Assembly: GCA_030386875.1 (NCBI GenBank)
Contig: CM059562.1
Span: 44,785,757-44,849,756 of the forward strand
DNA from: Morinoia aosen
Lineage: Eukaryota; Arthropoda; Malacostraca; Amphipoda; Talitridae
Direction: 5' to 3'
DNA length: 64,000 nucleotides
Part shown: positions 418 to 52,745 of the stretch, one piece after another
Position numbering within the stretch: position 1 is the first letter of the stretch
Layout of the letters: each line of letters begins with the position of its first letter
Translations under genes and position numbers: made by a program
Notes under the pieces: model-generated
Told to the model about the DNA's origin: nothing
Database searches by the model: none
Seen by the model: only the letters and a program-made list of their open reading frames with translations

Positions 418-653
418 GGGGATTGGGCACCATGAAACCCCTGCCTTTGAGCAGCTAATACTCGGTCAAGACCGGGGGGGGACCTGGATTACCAGGGTTC
501 AGAGTTTGATGGACCGGCGCCACCAGTAAATTTTATTATATTCAAATAAAATTTTTAACATGATGTTATCTCTATAAATGGAACAATATGCCAGGGTGCC
601 CCATAAAAATTTTGAAAAAAAAAAATATTTTCCTATGTTTTAGAACCACCCTA

Positions 654-688
<35 letters not shown>

Positions 689-1865
689 TATATATATACA
701 CACATATATAAGAATAGGCTCCCGAAGTACAAATCTTTCTCTTGCACCACTTTCATATATATATATATATATATATTACAGGCCTCGTATAAATTCAAAT
801 TATAAATTATAAGAATAGGCTTCCGAAGTACAAATCTTTCTCTTGCACCTCTTTCATAATCTGCTGTGCTGTCTTTCTCTTACTTACCGATTTGTTTAGA
901 CGATTTTTGAATAATCACCGCTACGTCATATTGCGTTATAAAGAACGTGTTAGCTTAGATTATTCAATTTTCTAATTGCTCTGTACATGATCAACGTCCA
1001 AATAGTTGAAAATTTGAATAACGAGCATTGTTGAACTAAAAGTATAGCTTTGAGTAACTCCAGGAATATTGGCAGTATTGCTGTAGTCATTCCAGTAGCT
1101 ACACTTTTCCCAGTTATAATCCCTCAATACAGTAAAACATGCATATTACATGGAAAAAGTAGCCTTACATCCATATTTGTTCGATGAATACATTATTGTA
1201 GTAATTACATATTGAACACTACGTACTATATATATACACATGTATATATGTGTGTACAGACATATACGGCACACATCCTATAATATGCCATTAGCTCCAG
1301 TTAATTATAAATATAAATGAATAATAATAATAATCTCAGTTAACAACAACTTCGGTCATAGACTATTTAGTTGTCCCTTTGGCATTCCTACCAAAGTTGC
1401 TGTGCTGTTGGAAGGTGATACGCTGAGGTTATGAGTGTCTTCCATCTTTCTCCGCTATCTATACAGATTACTTCAATTACGACGTTGTTGTTCGCATATT
1501 CAATCTTACTCAGTCAAGTGCGATACAACTCAATACAATACACTTTTCACCAAAAAAACAAAACTCATGTCTGACTTCAACAATAGCTGGCCCAACACAA
1601 AGTATGCACTCCTTTCGTCAGGCCACAACAATTCTCCAGAACTTCACCCCCATTCGTTACACAGCAATATAGCATTACATAAATGTCGATAACTACCGTT
1701 TAGCATGAGCCACCCGAAAAGGAGCCGTCATGGACATTCTAACACTTATCACAACATTAGCTTCTTTTTACCCATCATCATAAGGATTCAATCACCATAT
1801 GAACAAAGATTGAGGCCAATATAGCTGAAACTCGTAATTTTTACCTGAAGAACCAGGGTACATGG
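418..1865. other. Non-coding stretch with microsatellites and a short direct repeat
   Basis: (TA)n/(CACATA)n microsatellites lie at about 652-710 and 755-776. A 45-bp segment beginning AGAATAGGCT is present twice, at 711-755 and 812-858, on both sides of the second TA tract, so the tract lies within a local duplication. An (AAT)n run lies near 1,320-1,335. The rest is AT-rich with no gene that I can support. Confidence 0.7.
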
Positions 1866-1904
1866 ATGCAATGGAACAATGAATGTGGATGGATTGAAGC
1901 TAGG

Positions 1905-2010
1905 ACCCCAAAGTTGGGGTTCCAGCTCCCACCCTCACTTTGGCTGAGCGTCTTACCCGCGCTGGAACCCTTTCTCAACTCTGCGTTGAGGAGCTCAGTA
2001 CGCTCGGCCA
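1905..2010 (+). repeat. GC-richer dispersed repeat, copy 1, with pseudoknot potential
   Basis: This segment and 3,919-4,012 are clearly related over about 100 bp. It contains two interleaved perfect or near-perfect stems. P1 pairs 1917-1926 (GGGTTCCAGC) with 1961-1970 (GCTGGAACCC). P2 pairs 1942-1950 (GGCTGAGCG) with 2001-2009 (CGCTCGGCC) with one G-U pair. Between the 3' strands lies a hairpin (CTCAAC 1974-1979 with GTTGAG 1985-1990). An upstream ACCCC at 1905-1909 could instead pair with GGGGT 1916-1920 and compete with P1. The function is unknown; see the findings for the comparison of the two copies. Confidence 0.6.
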
Positions 2011-2470
2011 TTTCGGTTCTAAACTGTGCCGCAGAACATACCAACTGCTACAAGACTAAGACATAGGCAAACCGTAAAACAAACATTAAAACACAACCTC
2101 GCCACTCTTGAACTGGGTGGGTCCACTCAGATTTAACATCATATATTCCCTAATACATTCACTTTTTTAACAAATTCCATTACTTTATGAATAAGTCCCC
2201 CATCAGATAACAAGTTGGCCACACTTATGTTTCCTCCTGTCACCGCTTAGAAATTACAAATCTCATTTCCTTTCCTGTTGGACATAAAAAATTTTAAGAC
2301 TTCAGCTGTCCCCAGACGCTTGAAACGCAAAATACACATTTTGTGAAATCTACCCTGCAGACTTAAAATCTCTTTGAAATACCTTTCCACTATAACACCA
2401 ACAACGTGAAGAGAACTCTCAAAGAAATGATGCTATAAATATAAAAATAACACCAATCGCTATACATATA

Positions 2471-3019
2471 CAGGGTGGGCCAGAAGTAACCGAGCCTTTT
2501 AATTTGCTAATACAAGGAAAACTATGAACGCTAGGGAGTTGAAACTTGTTTGATTTGAAAGAATAACATTTTTATGGCTTGTCAGGGCTAAATTTTAAAT
2601 ACGTTCGAATGAGTGCCACGACTGTTCAGACAAATTAGAGCTCTTTTCTTTGTCGTTTCCATAACGCTCCTTAGTGTATCAGGCGAGATTTGAGCTATTT
2701 CATATAAAATTTGGTTTTCAAGTTCTTGTAAATTTGTTAAATTGGGTACATCAACTCGCGACTTACGGGAGACCCACAAGAAAAAGTCGCATGGGGACAA
2801 ATCTGGAGAACAAGGAGACCAGGTTATGTTACCAAATCGTAAAATTAAGTTATTTGGAAAGACTTCTCCCAACAATACCCTTTCTCTTCCTGTTAATAAC
2901 AATAGTGTTGTTAACCTATAAAAAAATTTTAACCTAATAAATCAATTTGAACTTCCTAGCGTTCATAGTTTTACTTATATTATCAAATTAGAAGAGTAAG
3001 TTACTTCTGGCCGGTCCTG
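2471..3019 (-). mobile_element. Internally deleted Tc1/mariner-superfamily element
   Basis: The two ends form inverted repeats of about 70 bp (left starts CAGGGTGGGCCAGAAGTAAC, right reads CAGGACCGGCCAGAAGTAAC on the other strand) and are flanked by TA on both sides (2469-2470 and 3020-3021), the usual target duplication of this superfamily. The minus strand at 2588-2902 encodes about 100 residues of the C-terminal end of a transposase, including the signature SPDLSPCDFFLW, which carries a conserved aspartate region of the DDE/D domain, followed by a helical tail. The N-terminal DNA-binding half and most of the catalytic core are missing, so this 549-bp copy is non-autonomous. SPDLxPCDFFLW with WSP before it is typical of the Tc1/mariner-related families common in arthropods; the exact subclass is uncertain. 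Confidence 0.85.
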
Positions 3020-3292
3020 TAAAAACCAAGAGAAAATTAGCATGGGCTGGACAATTTTGGAACACATTGCAGCTACTACCACACCTTAAAAGTACTGTCG
3101 TTGCTAAAATCAGAAATTGTGAAAAGATTAAAATGAATGCTAAAAAGAAGTTAAAACTTAACACGCAAGTTGGAAAGTGAAAATAAAGTTTTTGAAACTT
3201 GCAAAGCCCTAGAAACTCTTAGAGCGTGATTTACGATATTAAAAAGTTATGTCTATATTTTACGCAACGTTGATTCGAGATCAGATGTTAGG

Positions 3293-3640
3293 TTAAAGGC
3301 TCCCTAACCGCAACAAAGACGTTCGAAATAGAGGAAGGAAGAAGGGACTGTTAAATATGGAATTAAGGAAACGCGGAATCTGTGTACAAGGTGCATTGAA
3401 ACTGTACGTTCAGAAAGAAGTTCATGAAACAAGATAAAAGTTTAATGAAAAAGTAGTAGTAGTAGCAGCAGCAGCAGCAGCAGCTGAGAAACAGGACAAC
3501 AGTGAACCAAAAAAAAGATTGTCCATCCCATAATACAAAATTTATTTCAACCCACAGAGCCTACCTAACTCGCTACTCGGGACCTCACATATTCCTCCTA
3601 GGATCGCCAACTCCCTTGGATACAGAAGTTGTACCCCTTT
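3293..3640 (-). repeat. SINE-A copy 1
   Basis: Near full-length copy of a family present at least seven times in the window. On the minus strand it runs from the GGGGTACAACTTCTGTATCC-type head to the GGGAGCCTTTAA end. It lacks the (AAT)n tail seen in other copies, and an (AGT)n(AGC)n microsatellite has grown inside it at about 3,451-3,485. No clear target duplication is seen, so it is probably an older copy. Confidence 0.7.
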
Positions 3641-3918
3641 TATGATGAACTGTACATATATTGGATCCGGGTCATATCGGTCTAACCAAAATGGGACAAT
3701 TTGTAGTAGTAGTAGTAGCTAGCGCTTCAGTTACTCAAACTATGTCACACCGAAGGTCACATAATTTAACTCGTACCAGACTCTTCCAAATCACCACACA
3801 AGATGAACATCACTATTATTTGCAACATCAACATTATAATTGCAACTCAAGATTACAAGTGTCTCCCCATTAAAATTTGTTCACAACACTGAACAGTCGA
3901 ATGCACTGGGCATCAAAA

Positions 3919-4012
3919 CCCCGTAGTGGGGTTTCAGCTGCCCACCCATTTATGGCCGGACGACTTACCCACGCTGAAACCCCCGAGGTACCAACGAAGC
4001 TCGCCCGGCCAT
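3919..4012 (+). repeat. GC-richer dispersed repeat, copy 2, with pseudoknot potential
   Basis: Second copy of the repeat at 1,905-2,010. P1 pairs 3928-3938 (GGGGTTTCAGC) with 3973-3983 (GCTGAAACCCC), 11 bp perfect. P2 pairs 3954-3962 (GGCCGGACG) with 4002-4010 (CGCCCGGCC) with one mismatch and extends outwards by two more pairs (AT with AT). The 15-nt and 10-nt joining segments match copy 1 in length, and CTTACCC is kept between P2 and P1. The segment between the 3' strands is shorter (18 nt against 30) and can form only a weak CGAG/CTCG hairpin. Confidence 0.6.
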
Positions 4013-4119
4013 ATTGCAGTTTCTTCATCTTCAAACTTCTAAGACGATATGACGTCTGGCTATAATGCGTTACAGCGCGGCTTTACGTTAAATCTCTTTA
4101 AGCAGTGCAACATGGAATA

Positions 4120-4709
4120 CGAGGGTTAGTCAAAAAGTTCTCAGACAATTGCCATAATTTTGTACTGAACAGAGATTTACAAGTTGAAACCTGTCCTTAA
4201 AGCCTCCTTGATAACTTGCAGCTGTCTCATCAGTCTGTGTCAGGTCAACATCGAGAGAGGTTGCATCTCAAAATAGTAATTTTCAACCTTTCAAATGGCA
4301 AATTTTGAGATCAGAGCTAACATCAAATTTTTAACTAAACTAAATTGGAAACCTGTTGAAATCATCGAAGCTTTGCTAACAGCAGGTTTATGGAGATTCT
4401 GCACCATGTAGAGCAGTCGTTTATGATTGGATTGAACGCTCTAAAGAGGGAAGAGTCCAACTTGATGACGACCCATGAGGAGGGAGGCTCACAACAGCAA
4501 CAAATGAAAACATCTATCTCCTACAGAACCTACTGGAACAAGCTCCCCCTCCCCCCAATTTTATCAGGAAGGCATTTTCAGGTGGAAACTTAAATTACAA
4601 AAGTGTATAGACCACAATGGAGCTTATGCAGAAAAATAAAAGTAATGAGTTGTTAAGTAAAGAAATTATGGCATTTGTCTGAGAACTTTTTGACTAGGCC
4701 TACCCCTCG
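4120..4709 (+). mobile_element. Internally deleted mariner element with both transposase ends
   Basis: Inverted ends share TTAGTCAAAAAGTTCTCAGA-type sequence (left starts CGAGGGTTAGTC; right reads CGAGGGGTAGGCCTAGTC on the other strand) and are flanked by TA at 4118-4119 and 4710-4711. Inside, bases 4297-4500 translate, with frame changes, to a mariner N-terminal helix-turn-helix region (FEIRANIKFLTKLNWKPVEI, then APCRAVVYDWIERSKEGR). Bases 4579-4638 give the very end of a mariner transposase (KLQKCIDHNGAYAEK then stop). The catalytic centre between them is absent, so the copy is a deletion derivative that could move only with help from a complete relative. Its right edge abuts a SINE-A fragment. 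Confidence 0.85.
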
Positions 4710-21419: not shown

Positions 21420-23060
21420 GAATGACGGATGATTCGCGACAGTACTTTTTAAGCCCGATGTGTATAAGCAAAAATTAGACCTTATACTGGCAGATCATAC
21501 AAGTTTGAGCGGTTACAACGGGATCCTACTGAAAAGATAAAGAGAGATTGAATCAGCTAATTTCTATTGTTTATGTTGTTCCGAACCCTTACAATTTGAA
21601 AAAAATTGGAAGGGCATTGCCAACCTGGTTACATATATGGCAAAGTAAATATCCATAAGAATTAAAAGTATCCTCCCTTAAGGCCAATAATTTCTAAGGT
21701 TCCTGCAGTAACCTATTCAGTGGCTAAGATTTCTAACTAAAATTATATCACCATATCTACCTCAGAAATATATGCTCCGCTCATCAGATGAATTTGTGAC
21801 ACTGTTACGCGGCAAAACTCCTACTGGTATAATAGCTTCCCTAGACGTAGAATCATTGTTTACTAATGTACCCGTGCTAAATACAATAGATATTATTTTG
21901 GACTCTGCTCCACCTGATCTGTTTCCTCGCCATATTTTGAAGGAACTTCTCACTATTTGTACAACCGAAGCTTCATTTAAACATATTGATGGTAGTTTGT
22001 TCCGACAAGTGGACGGGGTTACAATGGGTTCCCCTTTAGGGACCCACTTTTGCTAACTTTTATATGTCATATGTAGAGAACTTGGTGTTAAATAGGATGG
22101 ATGTAAAACCGAGCATTTACTGTAGATATGTGGACGACGTTTTTGTTGAAGTACAAGACCTTGAGCTTGTGGAAACGTTAAGGGGTTTGTTTGTTGAAAA
22201 ATCTGTTTTAAATTCCACGTATGAGTTAGGTCTACACGGTAAGCTCCAAAGTTTGGATGTTCTGGTTGAAGCTTCTAAGGGTACATTCCATAGATCCGTT
22301 CATATCAAACCTTCCCATTCTGGTGAAACTATTAATTACGTTTGTAAAGCTCCGCAAATCTATAAAGAAGGTGTCATCCACACCTTGATAAATAGAGCTC
22401 ATAAAGTTTTCAGTAATTGGGAAAACTTTCATTACGATATGCTTACGAAATGCTTCGAATTAAACGTTTACTTGTAAATAAAAACTTTCCTAATACCTTG
22501 ATTGATAAAACTACTGATAATTTTTTTAACCGAATCATGAGCAGGGACAATAATTCAGTAAATGCAAACCGTATCAATATTTCTTACGAAAATCAAATGC
22601 ATAATAATTACAAAATTGACGAACGGGTCTTTGAAAACATTGTTAAAACCTTTGTCAAGCCAATAACTCCAGAAACATCTATTAAAGTTTGATGTATTAT
22701 AAAAATCATAAAATCAGTGACCAATTAGTAAAAAATAATCTGACTGCATCTGCGGTCAACGATTTTGACAAGGCCAGTGTGATTTATCAATTTAAATGCA
22801 ACAGAGGAGAATGTAAGCCTCTTGATAAACGTTACATTGGCATGACCAGAATGACCCTGAAGCAAAGATTAACAGCTCATAAATATTAAGGTTCCATCTT
22901 CAATCATTTTCGTGTTGACCATAGTTGCAAACCATCCTATGAAGATCTGTTCCCTAACACCAAAATTCTTTATAATGTTATTAAAAAATATCATATTCAT
23001 TTAATTGAAGCATTACACATTCATGAACTTAAACTTAATGAACACACTAAAGTTTTTTCC
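21420..23060 (+). mobile_element. Penelope-like retroelement 1 (reverse transcriptase plus GIY-YIG part)
   Basis: In order, and spread over more than one frame: an upstream block (about 21,440-21,700) with the conserved fingers-type sequence; reverse transcriptase blocks IIASLDVESLFTNVPV (21,829-21,876) and DGVTMGSPLG (22,012-22,041); the catalytic box YCRYVDDVFV (22,120-22,149); and the thumb region with KLQSLDVLV and a KPSHSGETINYVCKAPQIYK block. Then comes a GIY-YIG-type endonuclease part with VIYQFKC (22,780-22,800), RYIGMTRMTLKQRL (22,831-22,872) and further downstream blocks to about 23,050 that include LIEALHIHELKLN. This order is that of endonuclease-bearing Penelope-like elements. 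The copy has several breaks and cannot be active. No capsid-type gene is involved. Confidence 0.85.
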
Positions 23061-34429: not shown

Positions 34430-36345
34430 TGCATATAAGTACTTTTAGAACTTCAAGTCCTCTAAAGTGTTCTCATCAGTTTACCGGAGAGAGTATGCAA
34501 AACTTCTCAGTTCGCTTCCAACAAGGATGTTGTCGTTTCAAAATCAGACAAGGGCAGGGGTGTGGCTGTAGTTGATAGAGTTAGGTATGTGATGAGCATG
34601 TTATCCTTAATTTCTGATTGGTCAAAGTTTATTGAAATCACAGATCCAATTGGCAAATTTACTTTGAAGTTTGAAGACCGCATTAATTATTTTTTACGGA
34701 AGCTGAAAAACAGTAAATAAAAAACAGATGAAGTGTACACTGCTCTGTTTGTTTCTGGTTCAACTCCAGATATTCTTTATGGCCTTCCTAAAATACATTA
34801 AAAATATTTTGCTCAAAATTTTCAGTATAGACCTGTTTTTCTGCCATAAATACCTCGAGTTATAAGCTCTCGAAGTGTCTGGTACCGATTTTGAATCCTC
34901 TCGCTATTAATTAATATACAGTAGAAAATTCTAAGTCGTTCGTTCAGGATATAACGAAAGTACAAAATGGAAGTCAGTATTTTAAGTGTTCGTTTGACAT
35001 TGATAATTTTTTTACCAACGTCACTCTACGCGAGACTATAAATATTATCTTGGCTTCACTTTTCACCAGTCCTCATACGTTAATACGTGGTCTTTCGAAA
35101 GTGTTTTTTGCTAAGTTGTTGGAGTTACCGTGCTTAGTTAATTTTTTATCTTTGACGAGAAATTTTATCAACAACTTGAAGGTTTGGGAATGGAACTTGC
35201 TCTGTCTCCAACATTTGCAAACATTTTTTTTGTGTCATAATGAGGAAAAATGGTTAGACGAATACCCTGTAAGTTTTAAATCGATTTTTTACAGACGTTT
35301 TGTGGACGATACCTTTTTATTTTTTCATGACAAGTCTCGTGCTCCGCTTTTCTTAAATTACTTGAATGAATGCCATAGAAATATTACGCTCACAGTAGAG
35401 GGTGAAGAGACACTTAAACTTGCCTTCTTAGATTGTTTGGTTCACCGGTCTGGGAATGGGTTCGAATTTTCTGTGTATAGGAAAAAGTGTTTTACAGGCT
35501 AAGGAACTAATTTCTACAGTTTTTCGCCGTATATTTTCAAAGTGTATTTTATCAGGACTTTAATCTTTAGAGCGTTCAATGTTTGCAGTTCTTATAAGTT
35601 TCTACATGATGAGTTCACCTTTTTAAAAGAATTTTTCCGTAAGAATGGTTTTTCAACTCGACCTATAGATTCTCATATTGGTAAATTTTTGGAAAAAAGT
35701 TCAACAAACTGCCTTCTGTGGAATCAATCTGTGAAGGCATTCGCTTTGTTTCGTTTCCGTATTTAGGACCTTAGTCAGAGAAAATGAAGAAAGAAATTTC
35801 AAATTTATTCGTCAAAAACTTTCCGGGAATAAACTTTAATGTGGTTTCAATTAATAGTTTCAAAATAGGCTCATTTTTTCGTTTCAAAGATATGCTTTCT
35901 ACCGCGATGCAGGCCGCCCTAATTTACAATTTTTATTGTGCACGATGTGCATCTGGGTACGTCGGTTTGACGTCACGTACTCTAGGCAGTAGGGTGGCCG
36001 AGCGTCGAGGTAGGAATTACCGCACAGAAAATATTATATCTAGTCCATCGCATTCAGCTATTAGGGATCATTCAGAGCATTGTAATAGCCCGTTTGACAT
36101 CAGTAATTTTAAAATTCTTACTAGATCTAAATTTACCTCCGATTTAAGGATTTTAAAGTCTCCATTCATTTTAAGAAATAGGCCGATTTTAAACAACCAA
36201 CTAAGTTCTTTTCCGTTGTCAATAGTTAACAGGTAGTTTTTAAGGTTAGTTTTTTCAATTTATCATTTTTATAATTCATTTCATGTTTGTTCAGGTACAT
36301 TTGTTATGCTGAAGATGAGCGAATGCTCGAAACATTCAATTTTAT
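34430..36345 (+). mobile_element. Penelope-like retroelement 2 (reverse transcriptase plus GIY-YIG part)
   Basis: Blocks in order: SNKDVVVSKSDKGRGVAVVD (about 34,520-34,580), GSTPDILYGLPKIH (34,756-34,800), RPVFLP and PRVISS, a catalytic box RRFVDDTFLFF (35,295-35,330), the LAFLDCLVHR thumb motif, then a GIY-YIG-type part with YNFYCARCASGYVGLTSRTL (35,925-35,985) and SAIRDHSEHC, ending SPFILRNRPILNNQLSSFPL before the stop at 36,234. It belongs to a different Penelope subfamily from element 1, as linker and C-terminal blocks differ. The copy has several breaks. It is followed by a covarying hairpin motif at 36,309-36,333. Confidence 0.85.
36309..36333 (+). other. Penelope-tail hairpin motif
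   Basis: CTGAAGAT, then a 4-bp stem GAGC/GCTC with loop GAAT, then GAAAC, followed by ATTCAATTTTATTTG. The same frame with a different stem occurs at 42,783-42,808, inverted at 42,517-42,541, and in a decayed form at 52,699-52,721. It resembles a hammerhead ribozyme core (CTGANGA, stem II, GAAA) but has one extra T. Confidence 0.55.
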
Positions 36346-50365: not shown

Positions 50366-51345
50366 TTTAAATTGAACTTGAGCTTTTTTTAAATCAACTT
50401 CAGATTTTTTAAACCAACTTCAGATTTTTTAAATCAACTTGAGCATTTTAAAATTAGACTTGAGCATTTAAAGTTAAACTTGAGCATTTAAAATTAAACT
50501 TGAGCATTTTAAAATTAAACTTGAACTTTTTTACATTAAACTTGAACTTTTTTACATTGAAATTGACCTTTTTTACATTGAACTTGACCTTTTTTACATT
50601 GAACTTGACCTTTTCTACATTGAACTTGACCTTTTTTACATTGAACCTGAGGTTTTTTACATTGTTTTTTTACACTGAACCTGATGTTTTTTACATTGAA
50701 CCTGAGGTTTTTTACATTGAACCTCAGGTTTTTTACATTGAACCTGAGGTTTTTTACACTGAACCTGAGGTTTTTTACATTGAACCTGAGGTTTTTTATA
50801 TTGAACCTGAGGTTTTTTACATTGAACCTGAGGTTTTTTGCATTTAACCTGACGTTTTTTACATTGAACCTGAGATTTCTTACATTGAACCTGAGATTTC
50901 TTACATTGAACCTGAGATTTCATACAGTGAACCTGAGGTTTTTTAAATTGAACTTGAAATTTTTAAACTGAACTTTAGGTTCTTTAATATGAACTTGAGG
51001 TTTTTTACATTGAACCTGAGGTTTTTTAAATTTAACTTGAGGTTTTTTGAAATTGAACTTGAGTTTTTTTCAAATTGAACTTGAGGGTTTTTAAAATGAG
51101 CTTGAGGTTTTTTTAAATTGAACTTGAGGTTTTTTTAAATTGAACTTGTGGTTTTTTAAATTGCACTTGAGGTTTTTCAAAATTGAACTGAATTTTTTTT
51201 AAATTGAACTTGAGGTTTTTTTAAATTGAGTTGAGGTTTTTTTTTAATTGAACTTGAGGTTCTTTAAATTGAACTTGAGGTTTTTTATATTGAACTCGAG
51301 GTTTTTTAAAATGAACTTGAGATTTTTCAAAATAATATGTGACCT
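50366..51345 (+). repeat. 21-bp minisatellite, block 1
   Basis: About 46 units. The best-kept centre (about 50,640-50,940) has TTTTTTACATTGAACCTGAG then G. Units towards both edges are more diverged (AACTTGAGGTTTTTTAAATT types). Because 21 is a multiple of three, several frames on both strands stay open and give heptad-like peptides (FFTLNLR); these vary by block edge, contain stops and are not judged genes. T-tracts recur every 21 bp, two helical turns. Confidence 0.95.
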
Positions 51346-51352
51346 AGTTATA

Positions 51353-52515
51353 AAACCTGAGCTTTTTGAAACAAAATCAGAGCTTTTTGAAACAAAATCA
51401 AAGCTTTTTGAAACAAAATCAGAGCTTTTTGAAACAAAATCAGAGCTTACTGAAACAAAATCAGAGTTTTTTGAAACAAAATCAGAGCTTATTGAAACAA
51501 AATCAGAGCTTATTGAAACAAAATTAGAGCTTATTGAAACAAAATCAGAGCTTATTGAAACAAAATAAGAGCTTTTTGAAACAAAATCAGAGCTTTTTGA
51601 AACAAAATCAGAGCTTATTGAAACAAAATCAGAGCTTATTGAAACAAAATCAGAGCTTTTTGAAATGAAATCAGAGCTTTTTGAAATGAAATCAGAGCTT
51701 TTTGAAATGAAATCAGAGCTTTTTGAAATGAAATCAGAGCTTTTTGAAACAAAATCAGAGCTTTTTGAAACAAAATCAGAGCTTTTTGAAACCAAATCAG
51801 AGCTTATTGAAACAAAATCAGAGCTTATTGAAACAAAATCAGAGCTTATTAAAACAAAATCAGAGCTTATTGAAACAAAATCAGAGCTTATTGAAACAAA
51901 ATCAGAGCTTTTTGAAACAAAATCAGAGCTTTTTGAAACAAAATCAGAGCTTTTTGAAACAAAATCAGAGCTTTTTGAAACAAAATCAGAGCTTATTGAA
52001 ACAAAATCAGAGCTTATTGAAACAAAATCAGAGCTTATTGAAACAAAATCAGAGCTTATTGAAACGAAATCAGAGCTTTTTGAAACAAAATCAGAGCTTT
52101 TTGAAACGAAATAAGAGCTTTTTGAAACAAAATCAGAGCTTTTTGAAACAAAATCAGAGCTTATTGAAACAAAATCAGAGCTTATTGAAACAAAATCAGA
52201 GCTTTTTGAAATGAAATCAGAGCTTTTTGAAATGAAATCAGAGCATTTTGAAACAAAATCAGAGCTTTTTGAAACAAAATTAGAGCTTTTTGAAACAAAA
52301 TTAGAGCTTTTTGAAACGAAATAAGCGCTTTTTGAAACAAAATCGGAGCTTTTTGAAACAAAATCAGAGCTTTTTGAAACAAAATCAGAGCTTTTTGAAA
52401 TGAAATCAGAGCTTTTTGAAATGAAATCACAGCTTTTTGAAATAAAACCTGAGCTTTTCGAAATGTAACCCGAGCTTTTCGAAATGTAACCCGAGCTTTT
52501 CGAAATAAAACCTGA
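51353..52515 (+). repeat. 21-bp minisatellite, block 2
   Basis: About 55 units of GAGCTTTTTGAAACAAAATC then A. Variants GAGCTTATT and GAAATG occur in runs of two to seven units, a sign of recent block-wise expansion. Both edges carry the diverged AAAACCTGAGCTTTT version. The unit aligns in phase with block 1 (shared AA..., GAG, TTTTT, AAA positions). Frames such as LFETKSE repeats and, on the minus strand, SDFVSKS repeats are open for up to 183 codons but are broken by TAA where TCA has become TAA. Confidence 0.95.
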
Positions 52516-52529
52516 GTTTTTAATTATAA

Positions 52530-52745
52530 AGTAAAAAGATATAGTCTCACCAGCACTTATTAATGTGGTACAAGTTTTGCTTCTAATCGTTTTCCAGTGC
52601 TGTCATTTTCAAAATTATCACTCTGTCGGATGTAGCTTTGGGTATTAGATTTGCACTTTATCATTGTGACTGTATGTGTTTTTATATGTATTTTCAGCCT
52701 GAAGATGTTTGTACATCAAAATATTGCTTTTTTATAGACAACAGA
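52530..52745 (+). repeat. Penelope-type 3' tail remnant
   Basis: Contains CCTGAAGATG TTTGTACATC followed by AAAATATTGCTTTTTTAT, which aligns with the tail motif at 36,309 and 42,783. It directly follows the minisatellite. No coding part is seen. Confidence 0.45.

Follow-up and report, generated by a model that had tools for sequence, protein, structure and literature searches.

A pseudoknot/hairpin module in the 3' UTRs of RNase H-bearing LINEs of the amphipod Morinoia aosen

Recognition of their own RNA by LINE proteins has, to our knowledge, been worked out for few clades. Chambeyron reportedly found in 2002 that tandem UAA repeats of the Drosophila I factor are an initiation signal, and we know of no pseudoknot in this element. 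Its architecture of an APE endonuclease, a reverse transcriptase, an RNase H and a C-terminal Cys-His part is described in PMC2881922. In stringent-type LINEs, the ORF2 protein binds a stem-loop in the 3' tail, which ZfL2 needs, and the main text of the same article, in which the term pseudoknot does not occur, describes conserved 3'-UTR RNA structure for the tails of UnaL2, ZfL2-1 and ZfL2-2 (PMC4176376). Stem-loops in the 3' UTRs of human L1 and Alu were proposed to act in retrotransposition (PMC5135761).

Here, we analysed a window of 64,000 nucleotides from Morinoia aosen (GCA_030386875.1, contig CM059562.1, forward-strand positions 44,785,757 to 44,849,756), in which a sequence-only reading had noticed two related copies of a pseudoknot-like repeat with the strand order of HDV-like ribozymes. 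In our interpretation, both copies probably derive from a 3'-UTR module of LINEs, approximately 100 nt long, a pseudoknot combined with a hairpin, which would mark the LINE's own RNA for the ORF2 protein; the copies in the window are fossils. Like the tails of UnaL2, ZfL2-1 and ZfL2-2, the module is a conserved RNA structure in a LINE 3' UTR, and a short-repeat tail follows it, as in stringent-type LINEs. It differs from their stem-loops in that it comprises a pseudoknot and a competing hairpin, belongs to RNase H-bearing LINEs and is located about 85 nt (family c3) to 190 nt (family c2) from the tail. Its hosts resemble the I factor in their APE/RT/RNase H/Cys-His architecture and triplet-repeat tail (compare PMC2881922). 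With the structures of human L1 and Alu it has the location at the 3' end in common; those are stem-loops of another LINE clade and, judged by their description, set apart. Structured LINE tails are known. That a pseudoknot and a hairpin competing with it recur in several families of RNase H-type LINEs is new as far as we searched: in titles and abstract openings of an open-licence library, such a module is undescribed.

Module copies, transcribed strand and host LINEs

Both window copies (c1 and c2) are real, and the coordinates confirmed the positions given earlier for P1, P2 and the word CTTACCC in each of them. Within the window, the module core occurs only at these two places at up to three mismatches (chance mean 0.02). 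Speaking of two related copies nevertheless understated the matter, since an exact core pattern matched 2,210 times in the genome (1.99 Gb in 29 contigs) compared to 0 matches of the reversed control, and a looser pattern allowing up to one mismatch matched 3,691 times, again with 0 in the control. Bases 1905-2010 of c1 (106 nt) were found at 97-100% identity at the best 40 of 976 candidate places and c2 at 96-100% identity at the best 40 of 2,149, the window copy being included in both cases. At several places c1 and c2 recur a few kb apart in unchanged order because one larger repeat holds both. Judged by eye, at least eight families bear the module, and 88 full-length module sequences fell into 20 groups at 85% identity.

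The transcribed RNA is the minus strand of the window, opposite to the strand first read. Across 29 diverse copies, G·U wobbles on this strand occupy 29 cells compared to 13 cells with A·C, which favours the minus strand as the RNA. The U-G pair that had been described in P2 of c1 is a wobble on the plus strand only.

Access to the host elements was given by a c2-type locus (L014), in which a third, diverged module copy adjoins protein-coding sequence and represents the family c3, whose relatives occupy at least 40 places of the genome with no less than 98% identity. When 12 c3 loci are read complementary to the first-read strand, the module precedes a (UUA)n tail, after which the flank changes (L050 and L051 have a common flank). 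The module ends about 85 nt before this tail, and a 445-codon frame, open to the edge of the locus, stops upstream of it in nine of the 12 loci; the other three (L044, L047 and L048) have a shorter frame of this type or none. In the c2 family, the module lies downstream of an open ORF2 of 1,124 codons. The window contains a 5'-truncated 3' end of this family at 3703-4096 (minus strand), which begins around the ORF2 stop and runs as far as a (UAC)n tail at 3703-3718, about 190 nt beyond the module. Minus-strand positions 4096-3718 share 82% identity with the 3' UTR of the LINE with the 1,124-codon ORF2, and this 3' UTR is all that the window copy comprises.

Pfam assigned an endonuclease (PF14529), a reverse transcriptase (PF00078) and an RNase H (PF13456 or PF00075) to ORF2 of the c2 and L077 families, the PF00075 match in c2 being below its cut-off; this combination is that of I-type LINEs. 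The c3 fragment gave an RNase H match in a scan that excluded the RT region, and matches of the c2 ORF2 among PDB sequences include LINE-1 ORF2, R2 and TRAS1. In c1, the peptide that ends upstream of the module in ..MEFVKKVNVLGNI-stop resembles by eye the ..LEYLRKINAYDLI-stop of c3, and an ORF2 was not found in the 4.2 kb examined beside the c1-type locus L100. Both window copies are antisense copies in the 3' UTRs of RNase H-bearing (I-type) LINEs, and they are non-coding fossils of these retrotransposons.

Interleaved helices and the competing hairpin

In LINE sense, the module starts with the P2 5' strand, followed by loop 1, the P1 5' strand ('A'), loop 2, the P2 3' strand, loop 3, the P1 3' strand ('M'), a short loop and the 3' arm of a further hairpin, P3. 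By sequence comparison, P2 is a helix of 10-11 bp and P1 one of 10-12 bp, and together they form an H-type pseudoknot. Loop 1 carries a hairpin in some families, loop 3 is purine-rich, and loop 2 is an invariant region of 9 nt, NNGGGUAAG. Its core GGGUAAG is unchanged in 29 of 29 and in 35 of 35 aligned rows, an invariance that is partly built in, as most rows were gathered with patterns containing this word.

On the minus strand, the whole c1 module covers 1896-2010. Its P2 5' strand (2000-2009) pairs with the 3' strand at 1942-1951, and its P1 5' strand (1961-1970) with M at 1917-1926; between them are a loop-1 hairpin at 1974-1990 (stem CTCAAC/GTTGAG in the sequence) and loop 2 at 1952-1960, with CTTACCC, the plus-strand form of GGGUAAG, at 1952-1958. 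M serves at the same time as the 5' arm of P3, whose 3' arm lies at 1896-1909 (local fold −19.5 kcal/mol). The c2 module covers 3908-4010 on the minus strand, with the P2 strands at 4001-4010 (5') and 3954-3963 (3'), the P1 5' strand at 3973-3982, loop 2 at 3964-3972 (CTTACCC on the plus strand at 3964-3970), M at 3929-3938 as partner in P1 and the P3 3' arm at 3908-3922. The compensatory change in P1 between c1 and c2 that had been claimed before is present.

The alignments were assembled as follows. From 133 module sequences, 98 were unique, of which ten were left out because 5' truncation or decay had left no recognisable P2 5' strand; the remaining 88 gave 30 clusters at 93% identity and, minus the truncated L103, 29 representatives. 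The looser pattern yielded 16 new places among the matches listed, 14 of which were taken (the c1-like places C1:1418624 and C1:49630947 were left out). Six of these 14 copies, which the looser pattern matches and the first does not, extended the set to 35, excluding the 5'-truncated L167-L169, L173 with its insertion in P1, and L162-L165, by eye near-duplicates of L160/L161.

Among the 29 copies, 94.3% of 667 P1/P2 cells are paired compared to 90.8% in column shuffles, and sliding the partner by one to three columns leaves only 31.6-48.0%. Cells changed on both sides number 35, against 13.3 in shuffles. The 35 copies gave similar values, with 93.3% of 805 cells paired and 45 cells changed on both sides (15.7 in shuffles). 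We also applied a tree-based null, in which the same substitutions were scattered at random over the branches of a tree derived from loops and flanks. With 35 copies, the observed pairing of P2 (335/350) was reached in 0 of 1,000 trials and that of P1 (384/420) in one of 1,000; with 29 rows, the joint value for both helices (603/638) was reached in 0 of 1,000. The innermost pair of P2 is C-G in 18, U-A in eight, A-U in four and something else in five of the 35 copies. P1 has both-side changes at two positions in the same set; one of its pairs is G-C in most rows, G·U in L060 and A-U in L166. In 26 of 29 rows, the upstream partner of the M strand surpasses all but at most three of 300 shuffles.

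Covariation was tested on gathered copies, as the sequence-only reading had proposed: most measures favour P1 and P2, but three do not. For pairs changed on both sides, the count was equalled or exceeded in 383 of 500 shuffles for 29 copies and in 201 of 500 for 35, and for further pair types in 500 of 500 and 395 of 500, respectively. Co-substitution on one branch was not significant in the 29 rows (1 versus 0.45; 364 of 1,000 trials as high), a weakness that is expected if changes pass through G·U steps, as in the pair of L060 and L166. Two interleaved helices with compensatory change, the marks of an H-type pseudoknot, are present even though some measures do not exceed shuffles, and we consider the predicted covarying pseudoknot of P1 and P2 well supported.

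There are counter-examples to P1. A search pattern with a changed base in strand A matched seven singletons in all, none of which has the compensating change in M; several of the seven are otherwise decayed or truncated. One family of six loci combines a double change with two mismatches in the P1 core, with three mismatches in L161. These six loci are among the 14 copies deviating from the first pattern; of the others, one (L166) is fully compensated and three (L170-L172) are not, besides the three truncated copies and the one with an insertion mentioned above. L084 and L122 have lost P1 and retain the local hairpin; with up to one mismatch allowed, the genome has no further place of this kind.

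This local hairpin, P3, arises because M also pairs with the sequence 3' of it. The ACCCC near P1 that had been suspected of competing with this helix is real and conserved, and it is part of the P3 arm (1896-1909 in c1). At least eight pairs between alignment columns 120-139 and the 3' side were found in 28 of 29 rows, and the fold had z < −2 in 22 of 29, a support that stems from row-by-row scoring and not from an alignment test. Outer P3 pairs, located outside P1, change on both sides (column 126: C-G 18, U-A 4, U-G 2; column 127: A-U 24, U-A 3). On the gapped alignment of the P3 region, RNAalifold returned no P3 helix and three unconvincing pairs, because arm lengths differ between rows. 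As both P1 and P3 use M, one RNA molecule holds either the pseudoknot (P1 and P2) or the hairpin form (P2 and P3). The computed energies overlap, with −8.3 to −25.5 kcal/mol for the P1 duplex and −11.2 to −32.1 kcal/mol for the P3 region, both without the loop cost of a pseudoknot, and such similar predicted stabilities suggest a bistable element.

Possible functions of the module

ORF2 identity is 35% between c3 and c2, 31% between c3 and L077 and 38% between c2 and L077 (31-38% in the most distant pairs); c2 and L054 are closer with 44-68% in pieces, and c3 and L054 have 23-50% in pieces. Over the 54 columns of the stems and loop 2, c3, c2, L077, L054 and c1 are 78-89% identical, and whole-module identity between families is 51-75%. 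This points to strong constraint on the RNA or else to an exchange of tails between families, and both suggest that the tail matters to the element. Following the likeness to the 3' tails of stringent-type LINEs, we propose that the module would let the ORF2 protein recognise the RNA of its own LINE in target-primed reverse transcription, a role with which its position and conservation agree. Thousands of copies in several deeply diverged families make up a natural mutant collection with which to study how RNase H-bearing LINEs recognise their tails. A further structured RNA is gained as well, one that went unrecognised by Rfam release 15 in the window and in ten family loci.

Beyond this, we tentatively consider a bistable switch, in which M pairs either upstream or downstream and thereby decides between translation of the RNA and its use as a template, GGGUAAG being either exposed or held as a contact for ORF2 or U1 snRNA. 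One fold might, for example, be adopted during translation or packaging and the other while the 3' end is copied. H-type pseudoknots in the 3' UTRs of RNA viruses have been proposed to switch between translation and copying; the 3'-UTR pseudoknot is common to both cases, but the host element differs and the likeness is one of description only. GGGUAAG (minus strand, 1952-1958 and 3964-3970) resembles a 5' splice site or target of U1 snRNA and could matter for 3'-end formation. If the proposal holds true, an RNA switch would be common to LINE families that have diverged to 31% protein identity.

But why should a signal for the ORF2 protein of c2 be located about 190 nt from the tail, when a second conserved motif directly adjoins it? 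This motif (window 3719-3758, minus strand), likely a terminal stem-loop, consists of CUUCGG, a hairpin and CUGAAGCGCUAGC and was read by eye in the window. A strict pattern for it matched L058, L147 and L148 and missed the window copy, L149, L152 and L154, in the last three of which it was read by eye before (UAC)n tails. Its inner hairpin stems differ between families, again by eye (AGUU/AACU, AGUA/UACU and AGAGG/CCUCU). The motif of c2-type and L054-type tails may be the real site of the reverse transcriptase, which would leave stability, translation or switching to the module. Compact 3'-UTR pseudoknots often serve RNA stability, export or translation, and an element of this kind, e.g. a block to 5'-3' exonucleases, with recognition performed by the tail-side motif, is an alternative that we consider less likely. 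By eye, 5' ends exactly at the module are not evidently in excess among the copies inspected, which were themselves selected on the module. The same inspection gave no evident sign of template ends exactly at the module, a reading that we rejected.

It is unlikely that only the nested fold of P2 and P3 matters and that P1 is a by-product of the duplicated strand. P3 is local and stable and would on its own conserve the M strand, and L084 and L122 keep the local hairpin without P1. Yet the P1 5' strand is conserved although it is outside P3, and P1 exceeds the tree-based null (one of 1,000), changes on both sides at two positions and provides M with a partner better than shuffles in 26 of 29 rows.

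An HDV-like self-cleaving ribozyme, as the sequence-only reading had envisaged, appears very improbable. The strand order P1 5', P2 5', P1 3', P2 3' is indeed that of a nested pseudoknot, which together with the link to LINEs is common to the ribozymes of R2 and other non-LTR elements, and R2 ribozymes may have long J1/2 loops and be without P4 (PMC3774820). According to the same source, however, HDV-like ribozymes are located at the 5' end of these elements and have five helices with an active site in P3/L3, which P1' follows (PMC3774820), features not seen in the module. Only 9 nt lie between the P2 5' and P1 3' strands, where P3/L3 of HDV would have to fit on either strand; moreover, the transcribed strand is opposite to the one on which the idea was based. 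Instead of marking a retrotransposon 5' end, the module is located between the ORF2 stop and the tail, and 5' cleavage at this position would be without an evident role. Comparison with the HDV-like ribozyme models gave no match on either strand in the regions scanned: Rfam returned nothing for the whole window at the gathering score, one weak CRISPR-repeat match only for a 2.4-kb region at E ≤ 10, and eight weak matches to other kinds of RNA, none of them HDV-like, for ten family loci. Finally, that these are ordinary repeat fossils whose helices persist by recent common ancestry only is hardly credible, for although many copies within families are 96-99% identical, the families differ (module 51-75%; ORF2 31-38% for the pairs furthest apart) and neither the slid controls nor the tree-based ones reproduce the pairing.

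Further repeats in the window and at the family loci

Two other ideas were considered. The one candidate for a SINE with the same tail (L073/L074) is a duplication at two places. A tRNA-like fold, suggested by the A-box-like TGGCCGAGCG, was rejected, as ARAGORN yielded 0 genes in ten of ten loci.

Positions 653-4327 of the window are one arm of an inverted repeat of 3.7 kb, the other arm being C7:44767343-44771021 (L039, 96.9% identical). They could be read as the termini of a giant inverted-repeat element; they may also be a single repeat present twice. Between them are frames that look like those of an LTR retroelement, and a 670-aa frame ending near window position 149. Adjoining the module copies are two elements at 2469-3021 and 4122-4701 with terminal inverted repeats (83 nt, 81%, and 39 nt, 92%, respectively), presumably mariner-type MITEs. 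Broken reverse-transcriptase-like frames at 21712-22474 and 34915-36233 look to us like Penelope-like elements with a GIY-YIG end; Pfam gave only a weak RVT_1 match (E 5e-4, 34915-35499) on four such frames. A long array of 21/22-nt repeats at 50404-52600 is open on both strands. At L152 (C1:4241792-4242802), an oppositely oriented c2-type LINE end was seen by eye just past the point where an L053-family LINE ends in its (UAC)n tail.
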